Assembly: GCF_021545845.1 (NCBI RefSeq) | Contig: NZ_CP088923.1 | Span: 372,001 to 436,000, forward strand | Origin: Rhodanobacter thiooxydans | GTDB taxonomy: Bacteria; Pseudomonadota; Gammaproteobacteria; Xanthomonadales; Rhodanobacteraceae | Reading direction: 5' to 3' | DNA: 64,000 nt | Part shown: positions 5,951 to 64,000 of the stretch, piece after piece | How the letters are laid out: each line of letters opens with the position of its first letter | Position numbering within the stretch: the stretch's first letter is position 1 | Notes under the pieces: model-generated | Told to the model about the DNA's origin: nothing | What the model saw: only the letters and a program-made list of their open reading frames with translations | Databases searched by the model: none | Program-made: the position numbers and the translations under genes

Positions 5951-6094
5951 CGGGATTCGGGATTTGGGAGACGGGATTCGGGCGCGGAGGGGGAGCTGGA
6001 CAATCGGGGTGGGATGAGTGCGCAGTACGCAGATGGCGAAGCGCTTGGGAGCCGGCTTTTGCAAATCCCGAATCCCGTCTCCCGAATCCGGGCT
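5951..6094. repeat. inverted heptamer-repeat element, fis/purH copy
   Basis: Left arm (about 5951-5982) is built from GGGATTCGG-type units; right arm (about 6062-6094) is its inverted counterpart with units such as AATCCCGAATCCC. The block GGGAGACGGGATTCGGG on the left is mirrored by AATCCCGTCTCCCGAATC on the right. About 80 bp lie between, with no gene. The right arm abuts the fis stop codon and the left arm ends just before the purH ribosome site. Two further elements of the same design are at 9950-10395 and 16161-16278. Confidence 0.85.
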
Positions 6095-8478: not shown

Positions 8479-8575
8479 GTGGGAGCGCACCCTGTCCACA
8501 AGGGACTTCCTTCAGTGGTGCGCGATGCTCTTCGTCACGTGACGGAAAGGCATCGCGCACCGGGTGCGCTCCTAC
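8479..8575. repeat. palindromic REP-like element, copy 2
   Basis: A 97-bp nested inverted repeat between accC and prmA, strongly similar to the element at 4221-4315 along its whole length. Outer arms are GTGGGAGCGCACCCTGT and CCGGGTGCGCTCCTAC; inner arms TGCGCGATGC and GCATCGCGCA surround the same CGTCACGTGACG centre. Both copies lie in the gap between two co-oriented genes and follow the 3' end of the upstream gene, where such elements usually affect mRNA stability or termination. Confidence 0.9.
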
Positions 8576-8581
8576 GTGAGG

Positions 8582-9949
<1,368 letters not shown>

Positions 9950-10395
9950 GGGATTCGGGATTCGGGATTCGGGATTCGTAGGAGCGAGAGCCGGCTTTGC
10001 ATCAGTCACCTCTCTTGGCTTCGATGGATCGGATAAGCGCGTTGAGTTTGGCAAACACTCGATCGGTCAGCTCGGTTACGTCATTTGCGCCGGAGACATA
10101 GGCGAGTCGTTCGGCGATTTGCAGTTGCGTGTCCAGTTCGGACAAGGAGCCGCGAGCCATGGACAGGAACCGCAGATACTCAGGTGTGGATCGGCGGGCC
10201 GCACCCTCCGCAATGTTCGACGGGATGCTGATCGCGGCACGCCGCAGTTGCGAAGTGAGCGTAAAACGTTCGGAGTCCGGGAAACCGGCACTGATTCGAT
10301 AAATGGCTTCGACAAGGTCCATGGCATCGCGCCACACTTCAAGCTGGTGGTGTGGCCGCTTTGCCGAATCCCGAATCCCCATTCCCGAATCCCGG
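9950..10395. mobile_element. inverted heptamer-repeat element carrying a four-helix-bundle gene
   Basis: The left arm is four exact tandem copies of GGGATTC (9950-9977), directly against the accC start codon. The right arm (10364-10395) has the inverse units, CCGAATCCCGAATCCCC then ATTCCCGAATCCCGG, ending next to the accB stop codon. Between them lies one complete gene (10002-10382) whose ATG falls within the right arm. The design matches the gene-less elements at 5951-6094 and 16161-16278. That the unit moves as a cassette is inference: no transposase or target duplication is visible. Confidence 0.6.
10002..10382 (-). CDS. four-helix-bundle protein, S23/IVS type
   Basis: A 126-residue protein of the family called 23S rRNA-intervening-sequence (S23) protein. 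Signature parts: [39 protein letters not shown], then [29 protein letters not shown]. Family members form pentameric helical bundles; relatives occur within 23S rRNA intervening sequences of Leptospira and Coxiella and, as Avd, in diversity-generating retroelements. The role of free-standing copies is unknown. The first residues MGIRDSA are encoded by the repeat arm, so the start may lie there or further in. It interrupts the accB-accC pair on the same strand. No reverse transcriptase is nearby. Confidence 0.88.
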
Positions 10396-10399
10396 CCGC

Positions 10400-10858
10400 T
10401 CAGCCAATCACGAACATGGGTTCGTCGAATTCCACCGGCTGGCCGTTCTCGACCAGGATCGCCTGCACGGTGCCGGCCACGTCGGCCTCGATCTGGTTGA
10501 ACATCTTCATCGCCTCGATGATGCCCAGCGTCTCGCCGGCCTTGACCTGCTGGCCGACCTTGACGAAGGCGGGCGTGCCCGGGGTGGCCGAGGCGTAGAA
10601 GGTGCCGACCATCGGTGCCTTCACCACATGGCCTGCCGGCAGCGCATCCACGGCGGGCGCCTCGACGGCGACCGCCGGTGCGGCAGCGACCGGTGCGGCG
10701 GCCACGGCGACCGGGGCCACTGGCGCGGCGGCGACCGGTGCGGCGTTCTTCGGCACGCGCGACAGGCGCACGACTTCCTCGCCTTCCTTGATTTCCAGCT
10801 CGGCGAGGTTGGATTCCTCGAGCAAGTCGATCAGCTTCTTGATTTTGCGCAAATCCAT
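10400..10858 (-). CDS. accB: biotin carboxyl carrier protein of acetyl-CoA carboxylase
   Basis: Carries biotin between biotin carboxylase and carboxyltransferase. It is 152 residues: a conserved N-terminal helix ([23 protein letters not shown]), an Ala/Pro/Val-rich flexible linker (about 38-75) and a biotinyl domain whose [12 protein letters not shown] contains the biotinylated lysine. The ATG is at 10858. aroQ lies 75 bp upstream on the same strand, the common aroQ-accB-accC order. An inserted element follows the stop codon before accC, which could uncouple the two subunits' expression. Confidence 0.97.
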
Positions 10859-15743: not shown

Positions 15744-17937
<2,194 letters not shown>

Positions 17938-55345: not shown

Positions 55346-56002
55346 TTACTGGGCCTTTTGCGGGAACTGCGCGGCGATGCCGCCGGACAGCGCATCGGCG
55401 ATGGTGTTCATGTGTTCTTCCATCATCGTCCAGTCCTTCGCGCTGGTGGCTTGGTCGCCGGCCATGATCGCGCCCACCAGCGACTGGTGGTCGGCGGCAT
55501 GTTGCAGCAGCAGGCCGTCGACGGTGGCTTCGGGCCAGTGGTTCGGATTGGCGCCGTGCAGGAATTTGGCGATCTCGCCGGCGTTCGTGGCGAGAGCCTG
55601 CATGGCCTTGTCGGCAGCGGCCTTGTCGCCGGCGTGGGTCGCGTCGGTGAGTGCCTTCACGCCGCCCCAGTGACCGGCGAGCAAGGTGAGCAAGCCCTTG
55701 CCGGCGTCGGCGCCGTAGAAGCCGGCCACCGCGTCGGAAATCTGCTTGGCGTTCGCCACCACGGCGTCGGCGGTCTTGGCTTCAGCCGCCTTGTTGCCGG
55801 CTTTCACGGCCGTCGCGTAGTCGCGCGTGGCGACCAGATGGCCGTGCCACAGGCCGCGCAGCGCGGCGTGCAGCTTCGGTGCGGCGGGTGCGGCGGCGGC
55901 TTGCGGGGCGGCCTGCATGCCGGGCATGGCCGGCTGCGCGAGCGTAGTGAGGGGGAGGCTCAGACCCATGGCAAGGGCACAGGCAATGGCAAGGGATTTC
56001 AT
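55346..56002 (-). CDS. exported helical protein of a conserved unknown family
   Basis: A 218-residue exported protein, signal peptide MKSLAIACALAMGLSLPLTTLA. The mature part is almost wholly helical with recurrent motifs: LRGLWHGHLVATRDY, FYGADAGKGLLTLLAGHWGG, NAGEIAKFLHGANPNHWPEATVD and MEEHMNTIADALSGGIAAQFP. I recall the same pattern (FYG-x2-AG, N-AxEIAxFL-x4-NP-xWP, QFP) in proteins of Bacillus and actinobacteria that lack a function. Conserved His could bind metal. It precedes the cysteine-bearing regulator by 4 bp and is preceded by a palindrome, so regulator and target may share one operon. Confidence 0.75.
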   Translation of the reverse strand: MKSLAIACALAMGLSLPLTTLAQPAMPGMQAAPQAAAAPAAPKLHAALRGLWHGHLVATRDYATAVKAGNKAAEAKTADAVVANAKQISDAVAGFYGADAGKGLLTLLAGHWGGVKALTDATHAGDKAAADKAMQALATNAGEIAKFLHGANPNHWPEATVDGLLLQHAADHQSLVGAIMAGDQATSAKDWTMMEEHMNTIADALSGGIAAQFPQKAQ

Positions 56003-56071
56003 GATGTTTGTTCCGGTGATAGGTCGTCGGATGGCGACCCCGTCATCCTGAACGACGGCGACAAATAGTAA

Positions 56072-56083
56072 ACATGTTCATGT
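56072..56083. promoter_or_regulatory. palindromic operator upstream of the exported helical protein gene
   Basis: ACATGTTCATGT is a perfect 12-bp palindrome in an AT-rich stretch (TAGTAAACATG...CATGTGTAAAG), about 70 bp upstream of the gene start. It is a candidate binding site for the co-operonic regulator. No consensus known to me fits exactly. Confidence 0.5.
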
Positions 56084-56116
56084 GTAAAGCTTGTCATTGC
56101 GTGATTTTTTTCCGGG

Positions 56117-57396
<1,280 letters not shown>

Positions 57397-57400
<4 letters not shown>

Positions 57401-58044
57401 CGTGAGGGTTCTCGATCGGAGGGGTACAGGTCGGCGAAGTGCTGCGCGGCGGCGCGCACGTCGGGAGCGGCGAACACGGCGGTGATGGCCGCCAGGTAAT
57501 CGGCGCCGGCTTCGACCAGTGAGGCGCCATTGTCCGGCGTGATCCCGCCGATCGCCACCCGCGGCACGCCCAACGCGGCGCTTTGCCTCAGCAGGTCGAT
57601 CGGGACGCGCGCTGCCAGCGGCTTGGTCGGTGAGGGAAAGAACGCGCCGAACGACACGTAGCTGGCGCCGGCGCGTGCGGCAGCCTGTGCGCGCGGCAAC
57701 GAGCCGTAGCACGACACGCCGACGATCGCATGCTCGCCCAGCACGGCACGCACGGCAGCGGGATCGTCGTCGTCCTTGCCCAGGTGCACGCCGTCGGCGC
57801 CGACGGCTTGGGCCAGTGCGATGTCGTGGTCGATGATCAGCGGTACGTGATGAGTGCGGCACAGCTGCATGAGTGCCGTCGCTTCGGCGTGGCGCCGCGC
57901 CGCGTCGTCGCTCAGGTCGCGGTACTGCAGCAGCCTTGCGCCGCCGGCCAACGCCTGGGCGACGACGGCGAGCAGGTCGTCGCGCGGCCCGTCGGTGATG
58001 GCGTACAGGCCGCGGTCGGCGGAGAGTATTGGCGTCTTCTTCAA
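57397..58044 (-). CDS. thiE: thiamine-phosphate synthase
   Basis: Couples the pyrimidine and thiazole halves of thiamine. 215 residues. Seen: [61 protein letters not shown] and [22 protein letters not shown]. The start is a TTG at 58044 with GAGG at good spacing; no ATG fits. Divergent from the rubredoxin gene. Confidence 0.94.
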
Positions 58045-58156
58045 ATCGTCGCCTCGTAGGTGGGTGGGGAAGGTAGCGGCATCATTGTCGCGCTTTCGTA
58101 TTGTCGGGCGAGTTGCGAGAATGCTCCATTCCCTAGCGATCCGAAGAAACCCGATC

Positions 58157-58351
58157 ATGAGCCAGAGCTCCACCGAAACCGCCTTGCGCAAATGGATGTG
58201 CGTTGTCTGCGGCTACATCTACGACGAAGCCATGGGCGTGCCCGATGAAGGCATTCCCGCCGGTACGCGCTGGGAGGATGTGCCCTACACCTGGACCTGC
58301 CCGGATTGCGGTACGACCAAGGACGATTTCGAGATGATCGTGATCGACTGA
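58157..58351 (+). CDS. rubredoxin
   Basis: A 64-residue one-iron electron carrier. Iron ligands CVVCG and CPDCG (two C-x2-C knuckles) with YIYDEAMGVPDEGIPAGTRW between. The start at 58157 has no strong ribosome site; the frame is open far upstream without similarity. It is divergent from thiE, a recurrent arrangement in this class. Confidence 0.95.
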   Translation: MSQSSTETALRKWMCVVCGYIYDEAMGVPDEGIPAGTRWEDVPYTWTCPDCGTTKDDFEMIVID

Positions 58352-58460
58352 ACGCCGATCCCTGCCCGCAAACGGCCCGATTCCGTCAGTGCATTGGCCG
58401 GGCCGGCTGCTTTGATGTTCCTGCGCCGGTCAAGCGGCGCGCCGTACTCAGGAACATCCC

Positions 58461-58667
58461 ATGCGACAGTTCATTCCGTTCGAAGACGACTGGGGTGTAC
58501 TGGAAAACCTGCGTCCCGAGGACCTGATCCCCTATCGCACCGGCATGCTCGACGTACCTGGTGCGGTTGTTCAGCGTATCGGCCCGATATCGCCCTCGAT
58601 CTTCAACACATCCCCCGGCTGCGCACCGATACGTCGCGCCGTGCCGGCAGACAGCTCCAGCACGTAG
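58461..58667 (+). pseudogene. short open frame with a strong ribosome site, probably truncated
   Basis: Starts with AGGAACATCCC before ATG and encodes MRQFIPFEDDWGVLENL, then RPEDLIPYRTGMLDVPG, which looks like a real N-terminus. After about residue 35 the sequence is antisense to the DUF192 gene and no longer looks protein-like. Either a tiny protein ends near 58571 in another way, or a longer gene lost its 3' part. I do not recognise the family. Confidence 0.4.
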
Positions 58668-59023
58668 ATTGCCGGCGCGTCGCTGGGGTAGGTCGGGCAA
58701 GGGTCGGCCTTGCATGGCGGCACGTCCACTTGCATCGAGACCAGCCGACGCTCCGCATCGAAGTACAGGATGTCCAGCGGGATCAGGGTGTTCTTCATCC
58801 AGAACGCCTGCGGCCCGGTGTGGGGAAACACGAACAGCATGCCGTGGTCGGGCGCCAGCGCGGTGCGCATCATCAGGCCATGCTGGCGGCTGGCGTCGTC
58901 GGTGGCGAGCTCCACCGGAAAATGCTGCCCATGCAGCTCGAGCGCCGATGCCTTGGATGGCGTGGGAGCAGGGCCGGAGCAACCGGCCAGCAGGAAAAAC
59001 ATCGGGGCAACCCATCGTTTCAT
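58571..59023 (-). CDS. DUF192-family lipoprotein
   Basis: A 150-residue protein with a lipoprotein signal (MKRWVAPMFFLLAGCSG, lipobox LLAGC). The DUF192 domain shows QHGLMMRTALAPDHGMLFVFP, FWMKNTLIPLDILYFD and YVLELSAGTARRIGAQPGD. Function is unknown; such proteins are widespread in proteobacteria. The start at 59023 was chosen for the lipobox; the frame continues upstream without similarity. Its 3' end overlaps the short frame at 58461 on the other strand. Confidence 0.92.
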   Translation of the reverse strand: MKRWVAPMFFLLAGCSGPAPTPSKASALELHGQHFPVELATDDASRQHGLMMRTALAPDHGMLFVFPHTGPQAFWMKNTLIPLDILYFDAERRLVSMQVDVPPCKADPCPTYPSDAPAIYVLELSAGTARRIGAQPGDVLKIEGDIGPIR

Positions 59024-59219
59024 TGCAGCTGCTCGTCGCGGGCGGGAAGGCGCGACGGGCAGTGTAGCGCTGCGCGCGAGCGTTGCTTTCCGGAGAAAAG
59101 TGCATGCGCCCCCTTCCCAGACGCCCAGCTCGGCGCTATGATTCACGCCCCTTCGACGAGGCGCCCTTTCGCGAAGGTCTCCGCGACACCCCACGCTAAA
59201 AATTTCCTTGCTGCGGGTG

Positions 59220-59247
59220 TTGACGGTCGCAAAAAGCGATGTAGAAT
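59220..59247 (+). promoter_or_regulatory. rRNA operon promoter
   Basis: TTGACG (59220-59225), 16-bp spacer, TAGAAT (59242-59247), preceded by an AT-rich UP-like stretch (GCTAAAAATTTCC) and followed by a GC-rich discriminator GGGCGGCTC, as expected for growth-rate and ppGpp control. Confidence 0.85.
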
Positions 59248-59307
59248 GGGCGGCTCACCCGGAACGAAAGGTTCCGGGGCGATCACCGAAGTGGTGGTTG
59301 GCGAGAA

Positions 59308-59318
59308 GATCTTTGACA
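59308..59318 (+). promoter_or_regulatory. boxA-like antitermination signal in the rRNA leader
   Basis: GATCTTTGACA resembles the boxA consensus TGCTCTTTAACA bound by NusB-S10. The same motif recurs after tRNA-Ala before the 23S gene. The leader from the promoter to 16S is about 220 bp and holds no gene. Confidence 0.6.
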
Positions 59319-59469
59319 GTGTGCGCAGGTGAATTGTGTGGACGTCTTGTGCTGATGGGTTGCGACCTGTCCAAGCAATGCAAGCGTCCCACCAAAGAAA
59401 GTCAGTAATGAGTTTTTTCGGTTGGGAAGAACGCTTCAGAAAGATAGATGGCATTAAGCCATCGATAAC

Positions 59470-61011
<1,542 letters not shown>

Positions 61012-61191
61012 CAAGAAACGACGGCGTGATTCTTCACGCAAGACGTCCACACAAGACACCTGTACTTTACGCAAAGTCCCTTTTGCGAAGAGCGAACATC
61101 AAGACCGGCCATGCATGGCCGGACTCTTCAACAAAGCCGCTCCGAACCCAAGTTCGAAACAGGCTGGTGCAGGCTCTGGGGCTCAATCTCT

Positions 61192-61268
<77 letters not shown>

Positions 61269-61334
61269 TTACCTCACGCGGAGTCATCCGCGAAGGGCAG
61301 ATCAAGGCCGCCCTTCCGTGGGCGGACTCCTCAA

Positions 61335-61410
61335 GGGGCCATAGCTCAGCTGGGAGAGCACCTGCTTTGCAAGCAGGGGGTCGTCGGTTCGATCCCGACT
61401 GGCTCCACCA
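61335..61410 (+). tRNA. tRNA-Ala (TGC)
   Basis: A 76-nt cloverleaf starting GGGGCCATAGCTCAG, anticodon TGC in CTTTGCAAG, T-loop GGTTCGATCCC, ending with encoded CCA. Second spacer tRNA, 66 bp after tRNA-Ile. Confidence 0.97.
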
Positions 61411-61477
61411 TCAAGCGCTGCGTGAAGTATCAGCACACCAAAGATTTTGAAATCATCCGGCATCGAGGCCGGCGTGA

Positions 61478-61492
61478 TGTTCTTTGAAAACA
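61478..61492 (+). promoter_or_regulatory. second boxA-like signal before the 23S gene
   Basis: TGTTCTTTGAAAACA matches the boxA core TTCTTTGA and resembles the leader copy at 59308. E. coli rrn operons also carry a spacer boxA. Found between tRNA-Ala and 23S. Confidence 0.55.
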
Positions 61493-61613
61493 AGTAAACG
61501 AGTGACAAGCGTCTTGGTTCGAACCGAACCGAGGCAAGTGTTAAGGCACGAAAACGAAGTAACTTGGCTGCACCTGAGGAGGGTGCATGCCCCGAGGCGA
61601 CTTGGGGTTATAT

Positions 61614-64000
<2,387 letters not shown>

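Follow-up and report, generated by a model that had tools for sequence, protein, structure and literature searches.

The closest described relatives of the element reported here are the intervening sequences of 23S rRNA genes, which occur sporadically and at preferred sites, and for which horizontal transfer has been proposed and transposition discussed as a hypothesis (PMC4990558). In the Coxiella intervening sequence, tandem heptamers precede the S23 open reading frame, and its 28-bp stem is an in vitro substrate of RNase III; in the accessible text of the same 2016 paper S23 proteins are without known function (PMC4990558). S23 genes have also been noted in cas loci (PMC3936711; figure legend in PMC10910872). 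Heptamers are known from other work as well: Xanthomonas genomes contain 70-75 inverted heptamer pairs each, with generally no link to mobile elements according to the accessible text (PMC4692102; Rehm et al., 2015), and TAACTGA heptamers of Beggiatoaceae are reported without S23 in the accessible part of that study (PMC4679880). Within the literature covered, which excludes preprints and most subscription papers, we found no publication that connects operon-borne inverted arms of heptamers with S23 genes.

The locus studied here lies in a 64-kb stretch of DNA (the window), for which the first-pass annotation had described an S23-type gene between accB and accC, enclosed by inverted arms of GGGATTC-type heptamers, and had seen such arms without a gene at two other loci. 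Coordinates and the PF05635 match agree with the first description, and both gene-less copies were located:

8582..9949, minus strand: accC (biotin carboxylase), the downstream neighbour; Pfam Biotin_carb_N, CPSase_L_D2 and Biotin_carb_C
9950..9977, minus strand: downstream arm of four inverse heptamers that directly adjoins the accC start codon
10002..10382, minus strand: S23/IVP gene, 126 codons for 126 aa (PF05635, E=1.1e-34), its first codons read from the arm
10366..10393, minus strand: upstream arm, read in the sense direction of S23 as the heptamers GGGATTC, GGGAATG, GGGATTC and GGGATTC
10400..10858, minus strand: accB (biotin carboxyl carrier protein), the upstream neighbour; Biotin_lipoyl, E=1.7e-23
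16162..16276, plus strand: gene-less heptamer hairpin between two genes that we take, from their sequences, to be groES (stop at 16156) and groEL (ATG at 16288)
5952..6076, strand not assigned: gene-less paired heptamer element with degenerate arms

On the forward strand, positions 9950-9977 consist of four exact GGGATTC units, as had been noted before, and the proposed inverse on the other side (10366-10393) holds for three GAATCCC units, the fourth being CATTCCC; over 29 nt the arms are 93% complementary. The arms had also been said to touch both genes, which is correct for the accC ATG; the other arm begins 6 nt past the accB stop codon. The S23 start codon does fall within an arm if the ATG chosen by the ORF finder (10380-10382) is used. 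When the S23 transcript is folded, about 27 arm pairs close round the reading frame (z=-3.75 versus 100 shuffles); a stem in the transcript, as found in the intervening sequences of 23S rRNA, is therefore predicted for the accB-accC element as well. GGGATTC or GAATCCC occurs 16 times in the window compared to 6.8 expected from 50 base shuffles, and the 15-mer CGGGATTCGGGATTC has 243 overlapping matches in the 4.2-Mb source genome (G000) and none in the reversed control. Taken together, this excess and the genome-wide count argue that the arms are not due to chance. Elsewhere in the window, an inverted REP-type pair (TGGGAGCGCACCCTG...CGGGTGCGCTCCTA) is located at the 3' end of accC (8480-8590), and positions 56001-64000 have a G+C content of 0.594 versus 0.68-0.69 in the remainder together with stronger skews, possibly an acquired region.

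The encoded protein is a member of the S23/IVP family (PF05635), with 119 bits against a curated cut-off of 33.8, and also matches TIGR02436 (E=1.1e-34). Its nearest solved structure is PDB 2gsc (Xcc0516, five chains, E=1.7e-45), according to the title of the structural report a ring of five four-helix bundles (Lin et al., 2006), and the protein probably has the same architecture here. The gene is under purifying selection, with dN/dS values of 0.14-0.17 against four relatives and saturation against a fifth, which implies that the protein matters. Pfam and NCBIfam scans matched it to no transposase, nuclease, recombinase or homing endonuclease family, and S23 is the only gene of the accB-accC element, which encodes no transposase. 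Against the Avd equivalog of diversity-generating retroelements the protein scores 19.6 bits with a cut-off of 80, and no reverse transcriptase adjoins the gene, its direct neighbours being accB and accC.

G000 contains one S23 gene. In a 400-kb sample of this genome we found 10 paired-arm elements, among them the one that carries S23, alongside 10 single arrays, most of which sit in the loops of REP palindromes. Gene-carrying and gene-less copies have terminal inverted repeats of the same heptamers and a similar motif at the inner end: judged by eye, the inner end of paired arms often lies near G(N)CAAAAGC, which resembles the start of the S23 frame after the arm GGCAAAGCGGCC. On the basis of this resemblance, the sequences suggest that gene-less copies derive from gene-carrying ones. 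Single GGGATTC arrays in REP palindrome loops (GGCGATGCTCTT...AAGAGCATCGCC) are seen at L002, L006, L013, L015, L017, L025, L027 and L030, and such REP-loop arrays are usually bordered by CC on the outer side, with GCAAAAGC-like sequence on the inner side. The matches to CGGGATTCGGGATTC are also polar in G000: all 61 matches listed between 805,677 and 2,843,837 are on the plus strand, and 121 of the 143 outside those listed are on the minus strand. This polarity may reflect the direction of replication or lagging-strand insertion of REP-embedded arrays.

That about half of the sampled arrays are single and mostly placed within REP palindromes, together with seven Y1_Tnp matches in G000, would be compatible with heptamers that are independent G-quadruplex-type simple repeats, spread by slippage or by Y1/RAYT-moved REPs, with S23 as a caught passenger; the GGGNATC heptamers of Xanthomonas and Nostoc are indeed known as G-quadruplex repeats in the accessible text of PMC4692102. 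The distribution of the gene-less hairpins points in a different direction. Our survey of the family covered 147 genomes, 53 of them with S23, and 64 genes were counted, with one split gene merged and the match of G085 retained in spite of a score under the Pfam cut-off. Paired hairpins, defined by a pattern modelled on the accB-type heptamers (GGGANTS twice, 25-55 nt, then the inverse), occur in 47 of the 147 genomes and are absent from the controls. They were found in 32 of 53 genomes with S23 versus 15 of 94 without (p=5e-8), and most clearly in genomes with S23 at the accB site (22/26 versus 25/121 others, odds ratio 21); for genomes with S23 at other sites only, the association is weak (10/27 versus 15/94, p=0.03). 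Since the genomes are related and not independent samples, these p-values are indicative. Hairpins are independent of Y1 transposases (31/98 with and 16/49 without Y1, p=1, RAYT and IS200 types pooled) and follow S23 in both strata, with 22/37 versus 9/61 and 10/16 versus 6/33, respectively. The correspondence has exceptions on both sides, as 15 genomes scored S23-negative (including G110 with a decayed remnant) bear hairpins and 21 S23-positive genomes lack the pattern. The possibility that RAYT/Y1 moves the paired hairpins was considered and rejected owing to this missing association with Y1 transposases (p=1).

A second set of data comes from S23 loci of other phyla. Among named genomes there were 583 S23 relatives, from which we took the best 80, picked by likeness to the source S23; 71 of these had both flanks. 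The best repeat period was 7 bp at 56 of these 71 loci, 8 bp at 11 and another value at four. A lag-7 score of at least 16/21 was reached in both flanks at 28 of the 71 loci versus 11 of 1706 pseudo-gene controls from the same loci, and in either flank at 49 versus 119. At the 28 loci with periodicity on both sides, the arms resemble each other more in inverted than in direct orientation in 24 cases, and in 24 they score at or above the 95th percentile set by foreign partners; on the sense strand, the 5' side of S23 is G-rich in 27 and the 3' side C-rich in 24. The heptamer itself varies by genome (among others, GGGATTC, GGGACCG, GTGAATG, AAGTGAG, AGACGTA, GCTAGAT and CGTGGAC). Dispersal of the arms was tested with two heptamer patterns in ten genomes: pairs of GTGAATS match 34 times in the genome of Oryzomonas, compared to 0-2 times in the nine others (reversed control 0), and pairs of GGGACYS have 41 in Geobacter AOG1, 228 in Pseudoxanthomonas and 0-3 in the remaining eight (reversed control 0-4). 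In the three genomes with these patterns in their S23 arms they are therefore dispersed, and elsewhere nearly absent. Judging from the 11 loci that are best fitted by an 8-bp period, some groups may have arms of octamers. A crude motif scan placed none of the best 80 of 583 loci in 23S rRNA. As a general function of the arms, G-quadruplex formation was rejected, because many S23 arms of other phyla have no GGG runs. That the heptamers beside S23 in other phyla often do without GGG and still keep a period of 7 in mostly inverted arms is difficult to reconcile with simple repeats that caught S23 by accident; in combination with hairpins that track S23 regardless of Y1, it leads us to consider the passenger explanation unlikely.

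The first-pass annotation also raised the question whether S23 genes of this clade are always flanked by such arms. This is the case for a majority: at 20 of the 29 family loci scored, one flank or both attain 16/21 for lag 7 (both at 16 loci), and at nine neither does. The nine failing loci are the nrdA-nrdB and prfB-lysS sites, and the dnaK-dnaJ loci L236 and L250 have low arm scores too. S23 genes without such arms had been named beforehand as speaking against mobility, and in part they do occur; they slightly favour the passenger explanation.

We compared the accB-accC junction in 78 related genomes, which are not a random sample (the 30 best AccB loci, carriers of S23 at the accB site and others mostly from S23-bearing genera); three named genomes were excluded. 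DHB23 and G022 look like one genome, and DokdImm and G059 perhaps do, too. The junction holds an S23 element in 26 genomes, a decayed one in one, a gene-less heptamer hairpin in three, other sequence in three and a short gap in 45. The elements measure 435-586 bp, where five gaps of 435-470 bp were counted because S23 genes were located there, and the short gaps 2-22 bp. Filled and short gaps coexist within 10 genera. G086 has an S23 element and G091 71 bp of other sequence, and an identical 10-bp gap is common to five genomes of the source genus. Empty and filled sites thus exist side by side, and the first of the two findings named beforehand as speaking against mobility, the gene at this site in all relatives, is not what we see. 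Altogether, 26 of the 64 family genes adjoin accB.

The gene-less hairpins at this junction belong to G146, G026 and G111; those of G026 and G111 (L266, L292) are built from another heptamer, GGGCTGA, at the same junction in two genera. Among the short gaps, those of G081, G109 and G120 measure 19, 13 and 13 bp. A single GAATCCC closes the gap in G109 and G120 (L265, L267), directly next to the accC ATG, perhaps as the scar of a lost element or perhaps by chance. The decayed S23 remnant of G110 (L268) spans 426 bp, and this genome, scored S23-negative, nevertheless has a paired hairpin. The downstream arm directly adjoins the accC ATG in 18 of the 26 elements. The arm stem matches in 24.3 of 28 positions on average, and arms swapped between elements still match in 22.0 of 28; swapping costs little since the heptamers are common to the elements. 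The preference for a register is biased, as the best register was selected.

To look at empty sites outside this junction, we compared G000 over roughly syntenic 400 kb with G039, which is closely related and gave no S23 match. The accB-accC gap of G039 is 10 bp. From the 19 array elements of G000, 12 have a collinear place in G039 and seven have no syntenic pair; at 12 of 12 syntenic places such arrays are absent from G039, as viewed in full for 11 sites and derived from a pattern scan for 627111. Across the same 400 kb there is one array match in G039, which is not near an aligned site, versus 50 in G000. The gene-less elements of the window are missing as well, at 5952-6076 from the syntenic place and at 16162-16276 from the groES-groEL gap. 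In G000, the gene-less hairpin at 335280 lies directly against a start codon, which is uninterrupted in G039. Since some G039 gaps are filled by other sequence, the direction of change is clear at few sites only. No target-site duplication was seen by eye in the 12 syntenic pairs, of which only those at 381950 and 335280 are clean enough for a judgement.

Movement was assessed by comparing the phylogeny of the element with that of its flanks in 26 elements, 25 from family genomes and one from Luteimonas. Distances correlate weakly (r=0.39), and individual pairs deviate in both directions: flanks differ by 4.4% and elements by 32% between G060 and G031, by 7% and 38% between G059 and G141, and by 10% and 2% between G073 and G059. 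The two trees have 2 of 23 splits in common, and AU tests reject either tree on the alignment of the other (p=1e-26 and 4e-43). The conflict of the element ORF against flanks amounts to a delta logL of 198-371, which includes flanks cut to 120 nt on each side (243 and 198). For comparison, one part of the flanks against another gives 25, 52 and 92, with mild mutual rejection (p 0.0001-0.01). The strength of the conflict even at 120 nt argues that divergent elements entered one site repeatedly and without long donor flanks. Together with the mixed junctions, this supports the initial proposal of small mobile elements that form one family with gene-carrying and gene-less members.

Short-tract homologous recombination could mimic such movement. 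Passive exchange, in which DNA uptake and recombination over short tracts swap alleles of the accB-accC junction, would use the homology that conserved genes offer on both sides, and it would account for the same site being occupied every time and for the absence of an encoded recombinase. However, it has to cope with nearest flanks of 120 nt that still conflict with the element tree, and it offers no explanation for the gene-less hairpins that these heptamers form at many other places, so we judge it quite improbable.

The S23 genes of the family are not restricted to accB. The 67 loci (64 from the family and three from the named genomes) fall at about 11 junctions: accB-accC (27), nrdA-nrdB (9), carA-carB (8), dnaK-dnaJ (6), prfB-lysS (4), ahcY-metF (4, which may include one genome twice, as the S23 regions of L093 and L138 are identical), glyA-nrdR (3), an ABC-transporter pair (2), an Fe-S oxidoreductase-POR pair (2) and two single-locus junctions, one of which is a weak match under the cut-off. 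The accB and carA sites were separated by gene adjacency and locus clusters, and neighbours were checked with Pfam at one locus each for nine junctions. Some names are our own reading: presumably, the release factor is prfB and not another RF-1 protein, lysS is assumed from an OB-fold match only, and the partner of the ABC ATPase (no family match) and the gsp-type single site are likewise named by our own reading. At six of the nine shared junctions the S23 proteins form a clean clade (accB with 27 loci and a support of 0.948, nrd, ahcY, glyA, ABC and Fe-S-POR); a single intruder occurs in the prfB set, and neither the carA nor the dnaK loci form a clade in the S23 tree. With its fixed site, patchy spread and host-independent phylogeny, the accB-accC element shows the pattern of homing elements. 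S23 and both neighbours are co-directional for 45 of 64 genes versus 50 of 83 control triplets, no clear difference in a count for which the crude ORF caller mis-called the neighbours of at least L032, L033, L034 and L080. At the nrdA-nrdB locus looked at (L118), S23 is antisense, and the NrdB reading frame seems to start inside the arm (SLTSHSSSLTPR); arms may thus extend host proteins.

An old resident regulatory gene, vertically inherited and often lost, with arms as RNA-processing or stoichiometry elements, would match the purifying selection, the use of the same junctions by several genera and, with L033 (Luteimonas) and L080 (Pseudoxanthomonas), by a second family, and the sites between coupled genes (accB-accC, carA-carB, dnaK-dnaJ, nrdA-nrdB), but it is the least probable account in view of the conflict between element and flank phylogenies, as for G060 and G031, the intact 10-bp junction in five short gaps of one genus and the antisense orientation at nrdA-nrdB.

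We therefore favour, with a probability of about 0.65, the reading that the S23 gene and its arms constitute a discrete laterally moving element, resident at operon junctions, with S23 needed for its spread and the hairpins as its non-autonomous derivatives. A unit of approximately 440 bp (S23 gene and two arms) would pass between genomes and settle between a stop codon and the next start codon in conserved operons, with S23 subfamilies that are mostly dedicated to one junction each in a homing-like manner. The arms, about four 7-bp units each, are predicted to form a stem of roughly 27 bp in the transcript. In analogy to 23S rRNA intervening sequences, RNase III may cleave it and so release the messages on either side, and the element would thereby be tolerable inside operons and rRNA. 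The S23 ring would most likely bind the heptamer stem and be required for spread together with host enzymes, and gene-less hairpins with the same heptamers would be copies that lost autonomy. The data show directly that the unit is discrete, that its sites are empty or filled, that its tree conflicts with that of the flanks, that most shared junctions have an S23 subfamily of their own, that 7-bp arms accompany most of the S23 loci sampled across phyla, and that hairpins follow S23 genes in one family. The role of the S23 protein, the cutting by RNase III at this locus and the insertion chemistry are steps that we infer from the data at hand, and the preference for S23 as agent over passenger derives from association only.

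On the best reading of all data, S23 elements move laterally and are dedicated to sites, probably including the intervening sequences of 23S rRNA, and they are the source of Xanthomonas-type hairpins. A wider formulation is more tentative, and we would sooner bet against it than for it: S23 elements as a phylum-spanning homing-like class without a nuclease or transposase of their own, in which pentameric S23 and host enzymes copy units into operon junctions and rRNA helices via 7-bp stems, and which would be the parents of the heptamer repeats of Xanthomonas and perhaps Nostoc. S23 and the Xanthomonas heptamers have been studied apart, and linking them yields one testable object, a minimal element that returns to the same operon junctions and packs two heptamer arms and the gene of a single 126-aa protein into about 440 bp. 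The heptamer-armed S23 package appears to be a little-recognised kind of mobile DNA, and S23 genes in cas loci, as noted in the accessible text of PMC3936711, would be recast as possible insertions instead of functional partners.

Compared to the 23S rRNA intervening sequences of Leptospira and Coxiella, as far as their accessible descriptions go, the element has the same protein family (PF05635), a terminal inverted stem, heptamers and a sporadic spread; in contrast to them, it resides in a protein operon and not in a 23S rRNA helix. It further differs from the Coxiella sequence in that both arms are heptamer arrays, that S23 is under purifying selection here and decaying there, and that gene-less hairpins accompany it. 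With the repeats of Rehm et al. (2015) it has in common the heptamer family, the inverted pairs (two Xanthomonas genomes) and the positions at stop and start codons, with groES named there as well, whereas the terms S23, IVS and four helix are absent from the accessible text of that account (PMC4692102). REP/REPIN-RAYT systems are likewise short, inverted, intergenic and dispersed, and single heptamer arrays do lie inside REPs here; unlike these systems, the paired hairpins have no association with Y1_Tnp and S23 does not belong to a transposase family. Finally, Avd of diversity-generating retroelements is a distant profile match only, and the neighbours here are accB and accC.
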